64,000 nt of DNA from Caldilineaceae bacterium (GTDB lineage Bacteria > Chloroflexota > Anaerolineae > Caldilineales > Caldilineaceae): NCBI GenBank assembly GCA_019637645.1, contig JAHBVH010000005.1:1-64000 (forward strand), written 5' to 3'. This document shows, in pieces, positions 10,401-30,682 of the stretch. Position 1 is the first letter of the stretch, and every line of letters starts with the position of its first letter. The notes under the pieces were generated by a model that ran no database searches, was not told where the DNA came from, and saw only the letters and a program-made list of their open reading frames with translations. The position numbers and the translations under genes are program-made.

Positions 10401-10501
10401 GGCGTTTGACTTCGGTGCTCGGTTTAGCTGTTGGACTAGTGGCGATGATAGAGGCTGCGCAATTACGTATCTATCCCGCCACCACAAGGAGATTTGTGAT
10501 C

Positions 10502-16348: not shown

Positions 16349-17881
16349 ATGGGTGACCTAACGTCGTTGATTCTGCAAGCAAAAGAGGGAGATGTGGCGG
16401 CCTATAGTGCGATCGTGCGGCGCTTTCAGGATACCGCGGTTGGCTACGCCTATGGTATCTTGGGCAATCATGACGCTGCCAAGGATGCCGCCCAAGAAGC
16501 CTTTCTTGAAGCGTATGCCTGTTTGAGTGAGCTACGCGAGCCAAGAGCCTTTTCCGCGTGGTTGCGCCGTATCATTTTCAAACAATGTGACCGCATCACG
16601 CGCCGGCGTACGCTGACCCAAGTGCCGTTAGAAGTCGCCGAGGGAGTGCCAACTAGTGCGCCTGGACCAGTAGAAATCTATGAACAGCGCGAATTGCAAC
16701 TCTTTGTCGCCAATGCCCTGCAACAACTGCCCACCGAACAACGCCTTGCCATTACCCTTTTCTATCTCAGCGGATATTCTCACCAAGAGGTAGCCGACTT
16801 CCTGAACCTCACGAAGTCACAAGTCAATAATCGCCTCTACCATGCCCGCAACACGCTGAAAGAAAGGATCTTTGCCATGACCAAAGCAACGCTAAGCGAA
16901 CAACGCCCGTCTAATGACGAGCGCTTTACCAATCAGGTCATCGACCGCATTCGCCTAGCCAACCCAATGGAGGATTTTCCGCGGATCGCCCAACTGCTCT
17001 CGGCGGATGCCCTGGAGACGACCAGTGCCCAGGATCTACTCGACGAACACAAGGTTGATATGCCCGAACGGATTCTGCGGCACGCGGTGGCGATCAACCA
17101 TCAAGGTATAGTAGTTGGGTTTAACTTTGCCGGTCACTATCCCAGTATGAAACCTGGGCAATATTCCGTCAACGTCGTCGTTGATGCCGCCCACCGGCAA
17201 CAGGGCATCGGCAATCAACTCTGGCAGGATCTGCTCAAGTATCTGCAGGCACAAGGGGCAAACGCCCTCCTTGCTGAAGTACAGGAAGGCGATCCAATCC
17301 CCTATCAGTTTGCTGAAAAACGTGGCTTCACTCCGCGTACTCATCAGCTGCGGGCAATCCTCGATCTACAGCACTTTGATGAAGGCAAATTTGCGGCTAT
17401 CACGCCCCAGGTCGAAGCTATGGGCATTCGCCTCGCGGCCTTTGCCGACGTAGTGCAGAGCGAAGAAAATATTCGCAAACTTTACGATATCAACGGGGTG
17501 GCTGCGCTTGATGACCCAGCTTCGGATGGGGCTTATATCAACTATGAGAACTGGAAGAAAGTGATCTGGGGGGCATCGTGGTTTCAGCCAGCTGGGCAGA
17601 TGGTTGCGTTGGACGGCCACAAGTTTGTAGGGCTGTCGGCCATTAGCTACAACGCAGAGGAACAAACTGGATATATCTTGATCTCCGGTGTGGACGCTGC
17701 CTACCGCAACCGAAAGATCATGCAGGCGCTCAAATTGCGAGCTATTACTTATGCGCGGACGCAGGGCGCGACTCGCATCGTGACCAATGTCGAAACGGTC
17801 AACGCCCCCATGCGCGCCATCAACCAAAAGTTTGGTTTCCTGGAAGAACCAGGGAAATATGAGATGGAAAGAAAATTGTGA
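16349..17881 (+). CDS. Sigma-70 (ECF-like) factor fused to tandem GNAT domains
   Basis: 510 aa in one frame. Residues ~10-85 are sigma region 2 (YSAIVRRFQDTAVGYAYGIL ... DAAKDAAQEAFLEAY). Residues ~115-172 are region 4 (LPTEQRLAITLFYLSGYSHQ, SQVNNRLYHARNTLKERI). From ~190 onward come two acetyltransferase-like domains: one with VNVVVDAAHRQQGIGNQLW (the acetyl-CoA loop QQGIG) and a second, weaker one with ISGVDAAYRNRKIMQALK and TNVETVNAPMRAINQKFGF. The layout recalls tandem-GNAT enzymes such as mycothiol synthase. No anti-sigma gene is adjacent. An internal ATG at 16877, with GAAAGGAT upstream, could also give a separate GNAT protein. The fusion itself is visible in the sequence; coupling of acetylation to promoter choice is inference. 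Confidence 0.85.
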   Translation: MGDLTSLILQAKEGDVAAYSAIVRRFQDTAVGYAYGILGNHDAAKDAAQEAFLEAYACLSELREPRAFSAWLRRIIFKQCDRITRRRTLTQVPLEVAEGVPTSAPGPVEIYEQRELQLFVANALQQLPTEQRLAITLFYLSGYSHQEVADFLNLTKSQVNNRLYHARNTLKERIFAMTKATLSEQRPSNDERFTNQVIDRIRLANPMEDFPRIAQLLSADALETTSAQDLLDEHKVDMPERILRHAVAINHQGIVVGFNFAGHYPSMKPGQYSVNVVVDAAHRQQGIGNQLWQDLLKYLQAQGANALLAEVQEGDPIPYQFAEKRGFTPRTHQLRAILDLQHFDEGKFAAITPQVEAMGIRLAAFADVVQSEENIRKLYDINGVAALDDPASDGAYINYENWKKVIWGASWFQPAGQMVALDGHKFVGLSAISYNAEEQTGYILISGVDAAYRNRKIMQALKLRAITYARTQGATRIVTNVETVNAPMRAINQKFGFLEEPGKYEMERKL

Positions 17882-17921
17882 GTTTGGGCCGTGGTGCTGC
17901 TCTTTGCGCTCTATCGGGATT

Positions 17922-17950
17922 TTGTCAAATCCCCACCATTGTGGTACAGT
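17922..17950 (+). promoter_or_regulatory. Promoter of the tet-like leader transcript
   Basis: TTGTCA (17922-17927) and TACAGT (17945-17950) are separated by 17 bp. A perfect tandem 16-bp direct repeat, CAATTTACTGATTCAA, follows at 17966-17997, just before the leader ORF, and would lie in the 5' end of the RNA. Confidence 0.5.
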
Positions 17951-18024
17951 TCTTGACTATTAACGCAATTTACTGATTCAACAATTTACTGATTCAATCA
18001 GTGCTAACGAAAGGAGGTGCAGGC

Positions 18025-18117
18025 ATGACGAACCAATGCTATCTATCCCAGTCAGGGAGCTTGGGTTTTGTGACTTCTTTGAATGCACCACCGTTCGTTG
18101 GTGATCACTGCGCTTAG
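18025..18117 (+). CDS. Leader peptide of the ribosomal-protection gene
   Basis: A 30-codon ORF preceded by AAAGGAGGTG, a near-perfect Shine-Dalgarno seven bases from the ATG and stronger than that of most genes here. It begins MTNQCYLSQSGS. No homologue is recognised. Its place, in front of two intrinsic terminators and a TetM-type gene, is that of a regulatory upstream ORF whose translation is sensed. The ABC-exporter leader on the other strand (30510-30593) has the same design and a similar start (MTTWHYLSRLQGS). Confidence 0.7.
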   Translation: MTNQCYLSQSGSLGFVTSLNAPPFVGDHCA

Positions 18118-18165
18118 CCGTTGGCTTTGGCAGATGGTACGACTGTCAGGTATGGGTGATCTTCA

Positions 18166-18197
18166 AGTCATAGGGCTTTTGCTCTGTGACTTTTTTA
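18166..18197 (+). terminator. First attenuator terminator before the tet-like gene
   Basis: AGTCATAGGGC-TTTT-GCTCTGTGACT forms an 11-bp stem with two wobble pairs, followed by a T-run (TTTTTTATTT). It lies 48 bp after the leader ORF stop and 180 bp before the main gene. Confidence 0.75.
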
Positions 18198-18258
18198 TTT
18201 CGCACTGGTTACTGGACTACCCACACGCTTGGGTAGCTGTGTAAGCAGGGTGATTGGC

Positions 18259-18317
18259 TCACGGGATAGATATGGGTGCCCGTGACAGATAGGATTGGCT
18301 GGAAAGAGCCACGGGCA
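18259..18317 (+). promoter_or_regulatory. Alternative antiterminator pairing
   Basis: Four segments can pair in two exclusive ways. TCACGGG (18259-18265) pairs with CCCGTGA (18279-18285). Alternatively TGCCCGTG (18277-18284) pairs with CACGGGCA (18310-18317), which takes the left arm of the second terminator. The first state allows termination and the second prevents it. Another small hairpin, CTACCCA-CACGCT-TGGGTAG, lies upstream. Confidence 0.55.
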
Positions 18318-18340
18318 TATTTGTCCGTGGCTCTTTTTTT
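18303..18340 (+). terminator. Second attenuator terminator before the tet-like gene
   Basis: AAAGAGCCACGG and CCGTGGCTCTTT form a perfect 12-bp stem with a 10-nt loop, running into seven or more T. It ends only about 40 bp before the coding start, so transcription of the gene requires read-through. Confidence 0.85.
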
Positions 18341-18379
18341 GTTGCTCAACTGATGTACGAGTCGAAAGGGAGAGATTCG

Positions 18380-20311
18380 TTGAACGTGACAATCAAAAAT
18401 ATCGGCATCTTTGCCCACGTCGATGCGGGCAAGACGACCTTAACGGAACAATTGCTCTACCAAACGGGGGCTATCCGTCACTTGGGCCGCGTCGATCATG
18501 GCACCACCCAAACCGACAGTCTGGCCTTGGAGCGGGAGCGCGGCATCTCGATCATTTCCATGCCCACCTCCTATACCTATCAGGGGCAGAAGGTGAACAT
18601 TATTGACACGCCAGGCCACGTAGATTTTATCGCCGAGGTCGAGCGCTCCATGTTGGTCCTCGATGGCGCAATCTTGGTGATCTCGGCCAAGGAAGGGGTG
18701 CAGTCCCACACCAAGCTGCTCTTTAATGCGCTCAAGCGCATGGCCGTACCAACGTTATTGTTTGTCAACAAGGTTGACCGCATGGGGGTGGAGGTTGCCA
18801 AGGTCTTGGCCGAGATTCACAAACATCTAACCCCTGCGCTCTGTGTACTGCAAACGGTCTATGGGGAAGGCTCGAAACAGGCCCAAGTGCAAGCTGTGCC
18901 GCTGGAACCAACCGATGCATTGCTCGAACTCCTGGCCCAAGTGGATGAGGCAATCTTGGTCGATTATCTGGAAGGAGCCGCACTTTCCCAAGCGCGTCTG
19001 GGGCAGACGTTACAACAAGCCGTGGCCGCGCGCGTGCTCTACCCAGTCTTGTTTGGCAGCGCGCTCAATGGGATTGGCATTCCAGAAATGTTGGCTGGCA
19101 TCCAGCAATGGTTGCCAGCCTTTGAACCACTGGCGACCGACGAACCGAGTGGTGTTGTCTTCAAAATTATGCACCAACATGGCAAAAAAGGGCGCACCTG
19201 TGTGATCAAGCTCACGGCAGGGCAGGTGTTCTTGCGTGGCTTCATTGGGGCCGACCGCGTGACCGGTCTCTCGCGCTGGCAGCATGGTCAAGTGGAGGCT
19301 GTTCCTGTGTTGCAAGCTGGGGACATTGGCATGGTGATCGGCCTGCATCAGCTCAAGGTTGGTAACACCTTTGGGCAAGGCACGCATCACAAAGGCTTTG
19401 CGCTGGGTAAGCCTACGCTCAAGGTGAAGATCCAGGCGGAGCGTTTGCTGCAACGGCCAGAACTGCTCGAAGCGCTGACCGTGATGGCGGACAATGATCC
19501 CTATCTCTCCTATCAGCTTAACGAGTTCAACGACGACATCTATATCACTCTCTTTGGCTATGTGCAGATGGAGATTGTGCAGGAGATGCTCAAGCGTGAT
19601 TATGGCATCGAGAGCCACATGACGGACCCGATGACCATCTATATGGAGACGCCGTGCCAGATGGCCGAGGCCGCGGTGACCATGCACCAGGATGGGTTGC
19701 CCTATCATGCCGCGGTGGGGTTTCGCGTGGAGCCGCTGCCCAAAGGCAGTGGCATTGTCTATCGTTCGGCAGTGCCGACCGGCCACCTGCAACAGACCTT
19801 CCAGAATGCCGTCGCGGATGGGGTCTATGCCTATTTGGACCAGGGGCTCTATGGGTGGGAGCTGACCGACATGCAGATTACGCTGAACAGCTATGAATAT
19901 GACAGCGTCACGAGCACGCCCCGCGATTATCGCGAACTGAGCCCGTTGGTGCTTTTTGAGGCGTTGAAGAAAGCGGGGACCAAACTCCTCTGGCCGCTGG
20001 GTGACTATCGGCTTGTGGTCCCGACCCTGCATATGGGACGGGCGATGGCCGATCTACGGCAGATGAAGGCGACCATGGAAGAGCCTGTGCTAGAAGGCGA
20101 CCTCTGTACGCTGACGGGGATCATCCCTGTGGATCTTTGTCCTAACTACCAAATGGCGGTCCATCAATACACCAGTGGCATCGGCTACTTTGAGAGCAAG
20201 GTCACTGGCTATGCCGACGCCCCTGCTGAGATCACCAAAGAACGACCCCGCTTCAAGCGGGACCCAGCCAACCGCGGCACTTATTTATTAGGACTCGTGA
20301 AAACACCTTGA
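18380..20311 (+). CDS. TetM/TetO-type ribosomal protection GTPase
   Basis: 643 aa, close to the ~640 aa of TetM. This EF-G-like GTPase family dislodges tetracycline from the 30S A site. G1 is AHVDAGKT, G3 DTPGHVDF and G4 NKVDR, with the DHGTTQTDSLALERERGISI switch region, then domains II-V, including PYHAAVGFRVEPLPKGSG in domain IV and the GIGYFESKVTGY end. The start is TTG 18380, since GGGAG precedes it and TetM proteins begin at the equivalent point; an ATG at 18353 is possible. The gene sits behind a leader ORF and two terminators, as known for tet(M). Related chromosomal RPP-like factors exist, so actual tetracycline protection is unproven. Confidence 0.85.
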   Translation: MNVTIKNIGIFAHVDAGKTTLTEQLLYQTGAIRHLGRVDHGTTQTDSLALERERGISIISMPTSYTYQGQKVNIIDTPGHVDFIAEVERSMLVLDGAILVISAKEGVQSHTKLLFNALKRMAVPTLLFVNKVDRMGVEVAKVLAEIHKHLTPALCVLQTVYGEGSKQAQVQAVPLEPTDALLELLAQVDEAILVDYLEGAALSQARLGQTLQQAVAARVLYPVLFGSALNGIGIPEMLAGIQQWLPAFEPLATDEPSGVVFKIMHQHGKKGRTCVIKLTAGQVFLRGFIGADRVTGLSRWQHGQVEAVPVLQAGDIGMVIGLHQLKVGNTFGQGTHHKGFALGKPTLKVKIQAERLLQRPELLEALTVMADNDPYLSYQLNEFNDDIYITLFGYVQMEIVQEMLKRDYGIESHMTDPMTIYMETPCQMAEAAVTMHQDGLPYHAAVGFRVEPLPKGSGIVYRSAVPTGHLQQTFQNAVADGVYAYLDQGLYGWELTDMQITLNSYEYDSVTSTPRDYRELSPLVLFEALKKAGTKLLWPLGDYRLVVPTLHMGRAMADLRQMKATMEEPVLEGDLCTLTGIIPVDLCPNYQMAVHQYTSGIGYFESKVTGYADAPAEITKERPRFKRDPANRGTYLLGLVKTP

Positions 20312-20327
20312 ATAGCTAGGTGTGCCA

Positions 20328-20364
20328 CCATCGCTGCCAGTCTTTGCAACTGGTCAGCGATGGT
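20328..20364 (+). terminator. Terminator-like hairpin after the tet-like gene
   Basis: ACCATCGCTG (20328-20337) pairs with CAGCGATGGT (20355-20364), extended inward by CCAG/CTGG. No strong T-run follows. It also lies beyond the end of the convergent VapC-like gene. Confidence 0.55.
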
Positions 20365-20375
20365 TGGTTGCGTCT

Positions 20376-20798
20376 CTACTCTACACCCGCTATATCACCT
20401 ACAATAACGCTGAGGCCATCCGTGCGATACTGTTCAATTTTTCTATCTTGGGTAACGAAGGTATAGCCGTTTGCAATGGCTTGCCAAATGAGTAGGCGGT
20501 CAAAAGGATCTTTGTGGTCCGCTTTCTTGGGAAGTTGATAATAGGTGGCTAATAAATGATTCTCTAAAGCCGCAACTTCATAACCCGCTTCTAACAATTG
20601 TGCAAAGAGCTCATGTGGATTTGTATCGCCAAGTTCTAGCTTCCCTAAAGAATATTTGAGCGAAATTTCCCATAAATTGATGCCTGATATCAGTTTGGTA
20701 TCATGTTCGTTTTCCAAGAGTCCACGAACAAGTTCGTTGATTTTCTCTGGTTCAAAGAGCGACCAAAGAAGGTAGTGCGTATCAAGCAAATAGATCAT
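20376..20798 (-). CDS. PIN-domain toxin (VapC family)
   Basis: 140 aa. It starts with YLLDTHYLLWSL (first catalytic Asp), then NLWEISLKYSLGKL with the second acidic residue, KKADHKDPFDRLLIWQA with the DPFDRLL motif, and TFVTQDRKI with the last Asp. This subgroup usually cleaves tRNA or rRNA. Its ATG overlaps the antitoxin stop by four bases (ATGA). Both genes are AT-richer than their neighbours, as is common for acquired modules. Confidence 0.9.
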   Translation of the reverse strand: MIYLLDTHYLLWSLFEPEKINELVRGLLENEHDTKLISGINLWEISLKYSLGKLELGDTNPHELFAQLLEAGYEVAALENHLLATYYQLPKKADHKDPFDRLLIWQAIANGYTFVTQDRKIEQYRTDGLSVIVGDIAGVE

Positions 20799-21028
20799 AA
20801 ATCCAATAACTCTTCCTCTGTCATTTTGAAATCATCGTGAATTTTTAGGGCTTTATTTTGCAAAAGCCCAAGTCGAATCTTTTTGCTTTTATAAGATGCG
20901 TAAGGGATGAGGACAGCAATATTCTCTTTGCGCTTGCCATAGGTAATCAGTATCTCTTCTCCCGCGCGCACTTGCTCGATGATTTCTGAGAAATGAGTCT
21001 TGAACTCGCCAACCGGAAATGTTTTCAT
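20795..21028 (-). CDS. Phd/YefM-type antitoxin
   Basis: 77 aa from the ATG at 21028. The N-terminal MKTFPVGEFKTHFSEIIEQV and the EEILITYGKRKENIAVLIPY block are those of the Phd/YefM DNA-binding fold; the acidic, flexible C-terminus (DDFKMTEEELLDL) would wrap the toxin. It is the first gene of the pair. A perfect palindrome overlapping the promoter fits autoregulation. Confidence 0.85.
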   Translation of the reverse strand: MKTFPVGEFKTHFSEIIEQVRAGEEILITYGKRKENIAVLIPYASYKSKKIRLGLLQNKALKIHDDFKMTEEELLDL

Positions 21029-21034
21029 AGCGAT

Positions 21035-21067
21035 AGTATAAAACAATTCTTGACAACTTGTCAAGAA
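21035..21067 (-). promoter_or_regulatory. Toxin-antitoxin promoter and operator
   Basis: On the minus strand TTGACA (21064-21059) and TATACT (21040-21035) are separated by 18 bp. The perfect palindrome TTCTTGACAA-C-TTGTCAAGAA (21047-21067) covers the -35 box, the position expected for repression by the antitoxin complex. Confidence 0.75.
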
Positions 21068-28409: not shown

Positions 28410-30146
28410 CTAGATCCGTAGCTGCATGTTATAGAGATTGGCATAGGTGCCTTGGCGTGCCATCAGTTCGTCATGGGTGCCTTGTTCATCGATGCCATTG
28501 TCGGTCAAGACGAGGATGCGTTGGGCGTTGCGGACGGTCGATAGGCGATGGGCAATGACCAAGGTGGTGCGGTTATTGCTTAGCCGTTCTAGCGATGCCT
28601 GTACTGCTTTTTCACTTTCGTTGTCTAGTGAACTGGTCGCCTCGTCAAAAATGAGAATCGGCGGATCTTTGAGAAAGACACGGGCAATGCTCAGTCGTTG
28701 CTTTTGCCCGCCTGATAATTTCACGCCGCGTTGCCCAATATCGCTGTCATAGCCTTGTGGTAGTGCCATAATAAAGTCATGGGCATTGGCCTGTTTGGCC
28801 GCGGCCACAATCTCGGCCCGGCTCGCATCGCGCTTGCCATAGCTAATATTGTCGGCGACCGTGCCCGCAAAGAGATAGACATCTTGTTGGACGATGCCGA
28901 TCTGCTGGCGCAGCGAGCGCAGTGAAAGCTGCTTGAGAGGCATCCCATCCAGCCGAATTTCGCCCGCGGTGACATCGTAGAAGCGCGGAATGAGCGAACA
29001 GAGGGTGGTTTTCCCCACGCCTGAGGCACCCACCAAGGCAATATATTCGCCCACCTGAATATCTAGCGAGATATTTTTGAGAACATAGGCTTGATCCGTG
29101 TTGTACTTGAAGCTCACCTTATCAAATTCAATGTGGCCTTGGGCTGCGGATATGGTCATTGCTCCAGGGCTATCTTGGATATCGGGCTCCACCTCTAGCA
29201 TTTCCATAAAGCGTTCAAAGCCAGCCATCCCCATTTGATAGAGCCGCGTAAAATTGGCAAAGCGCTGAATGGGCTCAATGAGAATGCCGATGTAGAGCAA
29301 GAAGGTGAGCAGATCGGGCAAGTCTAACGTGGCATTGACAATGCTGATGCCGCCAAAGACAATCACCGCGATGCTCATCAGTTGGGTAAAGGCCACCAGT
29401 CCACTATAAAAGAAGCCTTCGCTCCGGTACCCATCGCGACGACTATCGACAAAATTTTGATTGGCTTTGGCAAACTTTTCCTGCTCAACTGCTTCGTTGG
29501 TAAAAGATTTAACGACCCTGATCCCTGCTAGCGTATCTTCTACCTGAGTATTTATGTCGCCAATGCGGTCTGCGCTGCGGCGCAGGGCGCGTTTCATCTT
29601 TTTGTTAAAATAGATGGCATAGAGCGCCATCACGGGCAGAAAGAGGAAGACAATCACCGCAAGCTTCACGTTGATCGTCAGTAGAATGATAAAGGCCCCG
29701 ACGAAATTCAGCGTCGCGATAATGATATCCTCGGGACCATGGTGGTAAAGTTCCGAAAGGTCAAAGGAATCATTGGTCAGCCGCGTCATGAGTTGACCAG
29801 TTTTCTGCTCATCATAGAAGCGGAAGGAGAGCTTTTGGTAATGCGCAAAGAGTTCGTGGCGCATGTCGCTCTCCATCCACGCGCCCATCATATGCCCCTG
29901 GTAGTCCACAAACAGGTGGCACAAAGTATAGATAATCACCAACCCCACCATGACCGCACCCATGAAATAGATTTGGGAAAGGGCATGGGGATTGTTCTCC
30001 TCCAGTAGATTCTTGGTGATATACCTGGCACACAGCGGCAGCACCAACGTGATCGCCGACACCAGAAAGGCACAGGCGAGATCGGCCAAAAAGAGCCCGC
30101 GGTAGGGCTTATAATAAGACAAAAATTTCTTGCTGCGCGAATTCAC
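28410..30146 (-). CDS. ABC exporter, fused permease and ATPase
   Basis: 578 aa half-transporter. The start is GTG 30146, with AAGGAG nine bases upstream. Six membrane helices occupy about 1-300 (LFLADLACAFLVSAITLVL ... VFLFLPVMALYAIYF). The ATPase follows with Walker A GASGVGKTTL, the Q-loop, signature LSGGQKQR, Walker B ILIFDEATSSLD and H-loop IAHRLS. The class is MsbA/BmrA-like multidrug or lipid export; it would act as a homodimer since no second half-gene is adjacent. Three terminators and a leader ORF precede it, much as in the B. subtilis bmrB-bmrCD system. Confidence 0.9.
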   Translation of the reverse strand: MNSRSKKFLSYYKPYRGLFLADLACAFLVSAITLVLPLCARYITKNLLEENNPHALSQIYFMGAVMVGLVIIYTLCHLFVDYQGHMMGAWMESDMRHELFAHYQKLSFRFYDEQKTGQLMTRLTNDSFDLSELYHHGPEDIIIATLNFVGAFIILLTINVKLAVIVFLFLPVMALYAIYFNKKMKRALRRSADRIGDINTQVEDTLAGIRVVKSFTNEAVEQEKFAKANQNFVDSRRDGYRSEGFFYSGLVAFTQLMSIAVIVFGGISIVNATLDLPDLLTFLLYIGILIEPIQRFANFTRLYQMGMAGFERFMEMLEVEPDIQDSPGAMTISAAQGHIEFDKVSFKYNTDQAYVLKNISLDIQVGEYIALVGASGVGKTTLCSLIPRFYDVTAGEIRLDGMPLKQLSLRSLRQQIGIVQQDVYLFAGTVADNISYGKRDASRAEIVAAAKQANAHDFIMALPQGYDSDIGQRGVKLSGGQKQRLSIARVFLKDPPILIFDEATSSLDNESEKAVQASLERLSNNRTTLVIAHRLSTVRNAQRILVLTDNGIDEQGTHDELMARQGTYANLYNMQLRI

Positions 30147-30190
30147 AAACTTTCTCCTTGCATGGATTGCATTAAACTTGTTACCAACAC

Positions 30191-30227
30191 AAAAAGGGCC
30201 ACGGGTTGCCGACACCGTGGCCCTTTT
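30191..30227 (-). terminator. Third terminator of the ABC-exporter leader
   Basis: Minus-strand AAAAAGGGCCACGG and CCGTGGCCCTTTTT form a 14-bp stem, 44 bp before the GTG start of the exporter. The GCCACGG/CCGTGGC core is the same as that of the terminator before the tet-like gene. Confidence 0.85.
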
Positions 30228-30270
30228 TGTCGCTCGCGCTCTGTAGGAGACACCGCATCGCGCTAGTGTA

Positions 30271-30309
30271 AAAAGAAAAGTCACGGGGTAGCCGAAGCCT
30301 ATCCCGTGA
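30271..30309 (-). terminator. Second terminator of the ABC-exporter leader
   Basis: Minus-strand GTCACGGGATAGGC-TTCG-GCTACCCCGTGAC, with nearly all bases paired and a stable UUCG loop, followed by TTTTCTTTTT. Confidence 0.85.
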
Positions 30310-30425
30310 CCCAATCAACCTTGTTGGCGACACCCTGTGGTATGGGCGATATACATCATTCCTCAGTCTTGCCTAAGGAAGTTGTCCACGCCTTGCCCCC
30401 GTTGTCGCTAAACAAAGTTGCTGCT

Positions 30426-30459
30426 AAACAAAAAGTCACAGGGCAGATGCGCCTGTGAC
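30426..30459 (-). terminator. First terminator of the ABC-exporter leader
   Basis: Minus-strand GTCACAGGCGCATCTGCCC...TGTGAC (30459-30435) with a T-rich tail (TTTTTGTTT). It lies 51 bp after the leader ORF stop, about the distance (48 bp) of the first terminator in the tet-like leader. Confidence 0.8.
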
Positions 30460-30509
30460 CATTGTCTCACTTTTGATACTCTCTCGCGGTTTGTAAAGCC
30501 AGCGTGGCT

Positions 30510-30593
30510 TTAGTCATTCTGCCGTAACGGTATGTGAAGACAAGCATGGGGCGCGCTACCCTGGAGTCGGGATAGATAGTGCCATGTTGTCAT
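30510..30593 (-). CDS. Leader peptide of the ABC exporter
   Basis: A 27-codon ORF with AAAGGAGG placed seven bases before the ATG at 30593, as in the tet-like leader. It begins MTTWHYLSRLQGS and includes Trp and several His. A small perfect hairpin, TAAAGCCA-CGC-TGGCTTTA (30494-30512), begins at its stop codon, so a ribosome at the end of the ORF would block that structure. It shares M-T-x3-Y-L-S and a following G-S with the other leader. No function is recognised beyond a sensor of translation. Confidence 0.7.
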   Translation of the reverse strand: MTTWHYLSRLQGSAPHACLHIPLRQND

Positions 30594-30653
30594 CTCCATA
30601 CCTCCTTTCTTATCAGCAGAAATCAAATCAAGTAAAGTGTAACGATAGGCTCT

Positions 30654-30682
30654 ATCGTAGCGAATTTTATCCGGGCTGTCAA
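30654..30682 (-). promoter_or_regulatory. Promoter of the ABC-exporter leader transcript
   Basis: Minus-strand TTGACA (30682-30677) and TACGAT (30659-30654) with a 17-bp spacer, about 60 bp upstream of the leader ORF. The remaining sequence up to 30833 shows no gene. Confidence 0.7.

Follow-up and report, generated by a model that had tools for sequence, protein, structure and literature searches.

The window analysed here, a 64,000-nucleotide stretch of DNA from a Caldilineaceae bacterium, carries in front of a gene for an RPP-like translational GTPase a leader (17922-18379) that, judging from its modelled folding, is very probably a ribosome-mediated transcription attenuator. More specifically, the folding predictions favour an attenuator that senses the arrest of a ribosome at the start codon of a short leader ORF, a reading to which we assign a probability of roughly 0.7. 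Confidence in this start-codon rule is reduced because two related terminators, the first one of a paralogous leader in the same window (T1') and the first one of a leader termed L149, form in their complete state with a ribosome on codon 1. If the reading is correct, drug-sensing attenuation would be extended to a little-studied phylum, in a design where each arm of a terminator finds a pairing partner within the leader ORF, and a single leader would have been duplicated ahead of two unrelated genes. The predicted trigger is the position of the ribosome alone, so tetracyclines and start-site inhibitors should induce and inhibitors that arrest the ribosome later should not.

Organisation of the leader and of the gene behind it

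The presumed regulated gene (18380..20311, plus strand), recognised from its ORF and from profile and structure matches, has candidate starts at ATG 18353, TTG 18380 and GTG 18386. Its product, 641 aa long when counted from GTG 18386, has the shape of EF-G with the domains GTP_EFTU, EFG_III, EFG_IV and EFG_C, and the closest solved structures are TetO and TetM. The NCBIfam model tet_protect (NF012153) is its top model, the best among the 25 matches listed, covering profile positions 2-614 of 614 with 657.4 bits, below the curated cut-off of 775. The YYSPVSTPADFR of TetO and TetM, located in the domain IV loop that we take to be the one that matters, aligns with EYDSVTSTPRDYR of the product, which is similar and not identical. 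The first-pass annotation had called the gene 'TetM-type'; the term is a loose label for a protein that scores 657 bits against 775 and is 36-37% identical to the TetM-family control loci. Among the homologues with 68-79% identity (P0002-P0030), three carry an organism name, two being from Caldilineaceae and one from Chloroflexota, in line with a probable Chloroflexota host.

The upstream gene ends at 17881, before the promoter-like site and the leader ORF. It occupies 16349-17881 and is a single ORF in which an ECF sigma factor part is fused with two stretches of GNAT acetyltransferase. On the other side, convergent with the RPP-like gene, the minus strand encodes at 20376-21064 a PIN-domain protein (140 aa) with a Phd-family antitoxin-like protein upstream of it.

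All parts of the leader lie on the plus strand. It begins with a promoter-like site, TTGTCA-17-TACAGT with a TG before the second hexamer (17922-17950), which is weak when taken alone, 4 such sites having been found in the consensus scan against 2.2 expected. A perfect 16-nt tandem repeat, CAATTTACTGATTCAA (17966-17997), has this site on one side and the leader ORF on the other. The predicted leader ORF of 30 codons (18025-18117, ATG at 18025) encodes MTNQCYLSQSGSLGFVTSLNAPPFVGDHCA and is preceded at 18010-18018 by the Shine-Dalgarno sequence AAAGGAGGT, a strong one, so that the 30-codon ORF of the first-pass annotation is borne out; the two intrinsic terminators named there were recovered within one or two bases by hairpin scan and folding. 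Both stand between the leader ORF and the RPP-like gene, and both have T-rich tails. Terminator T1 (18165-18199 with its tail) has 12 pairs at 18165-18192 (-17.2 kcal/mol), followed by TTTTATTT, and T2 (18301-18340 with its T run) has 17 pairs at 18301-18338 (-28.3 kcal/mol), the T run being located at 18334-18340. A middle hairpin of 21 bp (18200-18253), present in either predicted state, and a pre-T2 hairpin (18259-18285) are predicted between them. Terminator-like sites by themselves are near chance in the consensus scan of 17400-20700 (6 versus 3.5 expected). For the leader as a whole (17990-18345), the folding energy is -144.4 kcal/mol, whereas 100 dinucleotide shuffles average -112.3 (sd 5.3; z -6.06) and none of them is as stable.

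Several features absent from the first-pass annotation connect the ORF with the terminators. A 31-nt direct repeat with 74% identity relates 18050-18080 of the ORF to 18166-18196 of T1, and the ORF copy is able to pair with both arms of T1 because T1 is a palindrome. The resulting antiterminator, in which the ORF segment 18050-18075 is predicted from the repeat search and folding to form 23 bp with 18166-18191, has a duplex energy of -32.7 kcal/mol against -17.2 for T1 alone. In the fold without a ribosome, a lock hairpin of 19 bp joins 18003-18025, which contains the Shine-Dalgarno, to 18080-18102 in the 3' half of the ORF, the stretches 18006-18021 and 18084-18099 being 88% complementary. 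The lock excludes a nested ORF:T1 pairing, and the leader therefore has the three classical parts, namely an anti-antiterminator (lock), an antiterminator (ORF:T1) and a terminator (T1). A further helix, H1, is predicted between 18041-18049 of the ORF and 18263-18271 in the left arm of the pre-T2 hairpin, whose right arm can alternatively pair with the left arm of T2 (18276-18283:18311-18318). Nor did the first-pass annotation include the paralogous leader that lies on the minus strand around 30600.

Predicted response of the terminators to a ribosome

The ribosome was represented by a 30-nt stretch kept unpaired at each codon (P site), with a single ribosome per fold. In the RNA ending at 18197, the probability of T1 is 1.00 without a ribosome and 0.02, 0.03 and 0.11 with the P site at codons 1, 2 and 3, respectively, where the antiterminator is predicted at 0.94, 0.93 and 0.85; with the ribosome at codons 4-31 it is at least 0.95. 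A mutually exclusive antiterminator that depends on the position of the ribosome was found in silico for T1. In the RNA extended to 18341, the probability of T1 drops as low as 0.72 at codons 22-28, and shortly before T1 is complete a ribosome at codon 25 also opens it (0.09). The opening at codon 1 is robust to footprints of at least 12 nt on each side (at most 0.10) and to six different 5' ends, and is stable across 25, 37 and 50 C; a footprint of 10 nt on each side gives a weak switch (0.76), and wide footprints open T1 at codon 4 too (0.13-0.58). When a 30-nt block was slid along the leader, T1 was opened by blocks between -41 and +1 and between +55 and +61 relative to the ATG.

The T1 switch is rarely reproduced by randomised sequences. 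It was present in none of 500 dinucleotide shuffles of the ORF and in 4/500 shuffles of the full leader (flank, ORF and spacer), none of them as strong. Recodings of the ORF that preserve the peptide retained it in 8/500 cases, three as strong as observed, and in 11/400 of a second set; as the switch survives some of these recodings, the peptide itself carries part of it.

Control of T2 appears only in partly made RNA. The pairing of segment 18277-18284 with the left arm of T2, pointed out by the first-pass annotation, was found as 18276-18283:18311-18318 (8 bp, hereafter AT2). In RNAs ending at 18318-18324, AT2 reaches 0.91-0.95 with a ribosome at codon 1 versus 0.08-0.14 without, and T2 ten nt short of its end is at 0.34 versus 0.85 without a ribosome. 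In the models, the earlier claim that this pairing opens T2 holds in partly made RNA (AT2 0.94 versus 0.14) but not at equilibrium, where T2 wins once its right arm is made and stands at 0.98-0.99 in every ribosome state. Helix H1 has a probability of 0.77 with the ribosome at codon 1, 0.31 at codon 16 and at most 0.21 elsewhere. The AT2 switch is unspecific, being seen in 59/500 shuffled and 198/500 recoded ORFs; the T1 and AT2 switches jointly occurred in 0/500 and 1/500, respectively. The ribosome-dependent control of T2 in these models is a plausible but weak and uncertain step. As to the mechanism proposed earlier, attenuation remains the best reading, but the strongest alternative pairing is that of the ORF with T1 and not that with T2, and the predicted trigger is a ribosome at codons 1-3.

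The leader would accordingly be expected to work as follows. As long as no ribosome is present, or once it has reached codon 4 or beyond, T1 would form and transcription would stop; without a ribosome, the 3' half of the ORF would lock the Shine-Dalgarno of the ORF itself. A ribosome held on codons 1-3 would block the lock, and both T1 arms would be taken up by the middle of the ORF. If it is held on codon 1, H1 would form between codons 6-9 and 18263-18271, the hairpin 18259-18285 would open, and the freed 18276-18283 would capture the left arm of T2 before synthesis of T2 is complete. RNA polymerase would then presumably pass both T1 and T2. The natural signal may be a tetracycline-like drug, since tetracycline is reported to halt ribosomes at the start codon.

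Three IMG/VR leaders (L053, L048 and L058), whose genes score as members of the TetM/TetW/TetO/TetS family in NCBIfam, were scanned identically as a control; L058 scores above the Tet(M) cut-off, and the solved structure nearest to L048 is TetO. Their complete terminators form at 0.95-0.97 irrespective of the ribosome. Eight nt before the end, a codon-1 ribosome on the leader ORF MRQGILK lowers the terminator from 0.94 to 0.07 in L053 and from 0.97 to 0.01 in L048, and in L058 an effect of codon 1 is seen only at twelve nt before the end (0.81 to 0.14). In the models, once a ribosome occupies the ORF, the terminator's left arm is able to pair with upstream sequence, any sampled codon being sufficient. 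As the control leaders switch only in partly made RNA, visibility of this kind is what the method gives for a class reported to attenuate. The ribosome-dependent switch seen in these three leaders by the same method lends support to the logic of ribosome-mediated attenuation proposed in the first-pass annotation. The seven-codon MRQGILK is present in 11 of 13 distinct TetM/TetO-family leaders, and this string had no match in the literature searched.

Related leaders and the competing explanations

A hairpin scan of the whole window (-12 kcal/mol or better, followed by a T run) gave 16 plus-strand and 11 minus-strand candidates. Among the latter, T1' (30460-30434), T2' (30311-30279) and T3' (30226-30193) follow one another and belong to a paralogous leader on the minus strand (30147..30682), about 12 kb from the RPP leader, which has by eye a promoter-like TTGACA-17-TACGAT and a predicted ORF of 27 codons (30593-30510, MTTWHYLSRLQGSAPHACLHIPLRQND). 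The gene behind it (28410..30146, minus strand) encodes an ABC exporter with MsbA_lipidA as the best NCBIfam match (504 bits, below the cut-off of 602). The two leaders have an identical Shine-Dalgarno, AAAGGAGGT, and share a block consisting of the Shine-Dalgarno, ATGAC and CTATCTATCCC, over which 27/40 nt agree without any difference in length; no other place on either strand of the window exceeds 24. The T1 and T1' blocks match and occur in the same order, a 23-nt pre-T2 block matches at 21/23 (BLAST E 0.002) and the right arms of T2 and T3' at 18/20 (E 0.08-0.10). The leader peptides have MT...YLS in common, a similarity that 50/2000 shuffles score equally high. A third CTATCTATCCC-like site in the window, at 10467, was set aside, as by eye it lies outside any such leader.

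Folding of the ABC leader brings back the lock (30602-30582:30549-30529, 18 bp), the ORF:T1' pairing (30563-30550:30453-30439, 13 bp), H1 (30576-30568:30306-30298, 9 bp) and a long middle hairpin, all with partly altered sequence; a duplicated version of the device would thus precede the exporter gene. Four nt short of completion, T1' is at 0.95 without a ribosome and at 0.00 with one at codons 1-5; at later sampled codons it is at least 0.89, except at codon 21 (0.07), and 2/500 shuffles of the ABC leader behaved in the same way. With a ribosome at codons 1 to 5, complete T1' is at 0.94, 0.19, 0.88, 0.61 and 0.08, respectively. A sliding 30-nt block opened T1' from -44 to -2 and at +46 relative to the ATG. 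A codon-1 ribosome barely affects T2' six nt before its end (0.45 versus 0.54) and does not affect T3'.

Hairpins followed by T runs were also searched for in 43 loci, in which L002 and L046 are one place and L009, L010 and L047 are among those that are only EF-G-like. The layout of an ORF (18 codons), two strong terminators and an RPP gene was found in L149 alone, and nine other loci had a single weaker match. The RPP of L149 is 39% identical to P0001, and its genome (G340), reached through a window protein, appears to belong to Chloroflexota. Six nt short, its T1 has a probability of 0.99 in the absence of a ribosome; a ribosome at codons 1-4 lowers this to 0.09-0.20, whereas at codons 6, 9, 12, 15 and 19 it stays at 0.97-0.99. 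Its T2, at 0.48 in the absence of a ribosome, is reduced to 0.01-0.02 by one at codons 1-4 and is also low at codon 15 (0.08) and codons 9 and 19 (0.20). The switch of T1 was seen in 4/500 shuffles, two of them as strong, and a sliding 30-nt block opens T1 nowhere except between -17 and -5 relative to the ATG. Complete T1 of L149 is at 1.00 in every ribosome state; the impression of an unswitched leader came from complete hairpins only and was abandoned, since the partly made RNA shows a switch. Among the RPP, ABC and L149 leaders, opening of complete T1 at equilibrium is confined to the RPP leader.

These comparisons bear on where the ribosome would have to stop. Arrest within the ORF, caused by a drug-specific effect of the nascent peptide or by a shortage of a charged tRNA as in the leaders of erm and amino-acid operons, would be consistent with the MT...YLS common to the two paralogous peptides and with the opening of T1 and T1', shortly before completion, at codon 25 of the RPP leader and codon 21 of the ABC leader. 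Complete T1 of the RPP leader, however, is opened at codons 1-3 only, and T1 of L149, shortly before completion, by codons 1-4 only among those sampled; furthermore, the three peptides compared by eye have neither a common arrest motif nor a run of a single amino acid, and 492/500 peptide-preserving recodings abolish the T1 switch. Arrest inside the ORF is considered rather unlikely.

The ribosome might also have no part in the process. T1 and T2 could be conventional terminators that serve the upstream gene or a small RNA, the ORF being fortuitous; tandem terminators do occur, and the consensus scans alone are near chance. Such an origin is improbable to a greater degree, given an upstream gene that ends ahead of the promoter-like site and the ORF, an ORF that mirrors T1, the unusual stability of the leader fold and a paralogous leader in which these parts recur in unchanged order ahead of a different gene. 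It is very unlikely that a ligand, a protein or Rho reads the switch in place of the ribosome: in the models, covering the Shine-Dalgarno region with a 30-nt block opens T1 at most positions, and a bound protein could do so too, but a strong Shine-Dalgarno, a start codon and a reading frame are kept in both paralogues, and the search of the leader against Rfam returned no family at threshold and seven matches at E<=1, which is chance level.

Known attenuators and leaders of other RPP genes

An attenuator that senses start-codon arrest would have functional counterparts among described systems. tetM is entered as a transcription attenuator in a table that credits Su 1992 (PMC5418344), and an attenuator of hflXr has been described (PMC6310831). 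Tetracycline serves to map start sites (PMC4909307). For vmlR of Bacillus subtilis, stalling by antibiotics takes place on a uORF inside an anti-antiterminator, retapamulin and lincomycin being reported to stall initiating ribosomes (PMC9226507). As predicted for the RPP leader, the uORF there lies in an anti-antiterminator hairpin that is blocked by the stalled initiating ribosome, and an antiterminator replaces an intrinsic terminator; unlike the RPP leader, vmlR has a uORF of only three codons (MIN), a single terminator hairpin and another hairpin that covers its own Shine-Dalgarno, whereas the RPP leader has a 30-codon ORF that itself supplies the partner for the two T1 arms, two terminators, a nested long-range helix and an RPP as the regulated gene. 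In toiL-topAI of E. coli, tetracycline and retapamulin are reported to act at the toiL start codon, with the arrest of ribosomes there by tetracycline as the signal (PMC12121999), much as proposed here, but the output does not involve intrinsic terminators and consists of topAI translation together with Rho. The DUF1127 leader of Sinorhizobium meliloti is presented as a tetracycline-relieved, presumably Rho-dependent attenuator (PMC12218461); impaired initiation at its uORF relieves attenuation and a predicted hairpin holds the RBS, as is also predicted for the RPP leader, but it would act by occlusion of an element rather than by antiterminator pairing. The TetM/TetO-family leaders likewise have a short ORF and a terminator before an RPP gene, but their ORF is MRQGILK, their hairpins differ, a single terminator is located near the RPP start and no sequence similarity was seen. 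The RPP leader would function like the vmlR and tet(M) leaders; at the level of sequence, it is a member of neither family. Among the papers listed for Chloroflexi or Chloroflexota with leader peptides, attenuation or ribosomal protection, no title or abstract opening names such a leader in that phylum.

A wider proposal, for which the odds are somewhat unfavourable, is that the genome has a small regulon of duplicated RNA sensors of start-codon arrest, responding to any drug and raising a ribosome-protection factor together with an exporter, and that this input might have been adopted independently for RPP genes in several bacterial groups, through uORF devices that use terminators in some cases and the pairing of two start codons in others.

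Searches for relatives covered several collections. The profile scan of genome contigs gave 45 loci, none with a Chloroflexota title. The RPP protein had matches in 21/100, 20/158 and 22/158 (same class) genomes of the sets searched, the best listed identity being 42%, and in 0/400 (E<=1e-150), 0/298, 0/110, 0/1 and 0/1 of the others, with only three or four first-look candidates scored per genome among those listed for the 400- and 298-genome sets. Other window proteins used as markers matched in 5/291, 4/201 and 2/161 genomes, among which a close relative was not found. An alignment search of viral contigs, with 80/100 loci kept, gave no full-length close relative, and the leader motifs had no match in viral contigs, the retrieved loci or plasmids.

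A different arrangement was observed in the RPP loci L146-L166 of one class, where 18/21 have a uORF beginning with ATGCG about 50-70 nt before the RPP start. In 12 aligned loci, a CGCAT at the start codon of the RPP gene offers a complementary partner for this ATGCG (59/60 cells over five pairs, mostly invariant). The arms of an inner hairpin covary, one pair being T-A in six, C-G in five and T-G in one, and another A-T in six and G-C in five with one mismatch; 106/120 cells are paired, versus 43-65 when the arms are slid. The arrangement looks like a translational leader. Accessibility of the RPP start was scored in 21 loci (19 of L146-L166 and two actinobacterial; L005, which lacks the start, was dropped), with mixed results: its mean is 0.31 without a ribosome and 0.44 with a ribosome on the overlapping uORF, the value rising by more than 0.1 in 11/21 and falling by more than 0.1 in one (L157). 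In the actinobacterial loci, a uORF beginning with ATGCG precedes the gene in four (L001, L004, L005 and L007) of the seven examined (L001 and L003-L008). The MRQGILK ORF of the TetM/TetO-family leaders also begins with ATGCGGCA.
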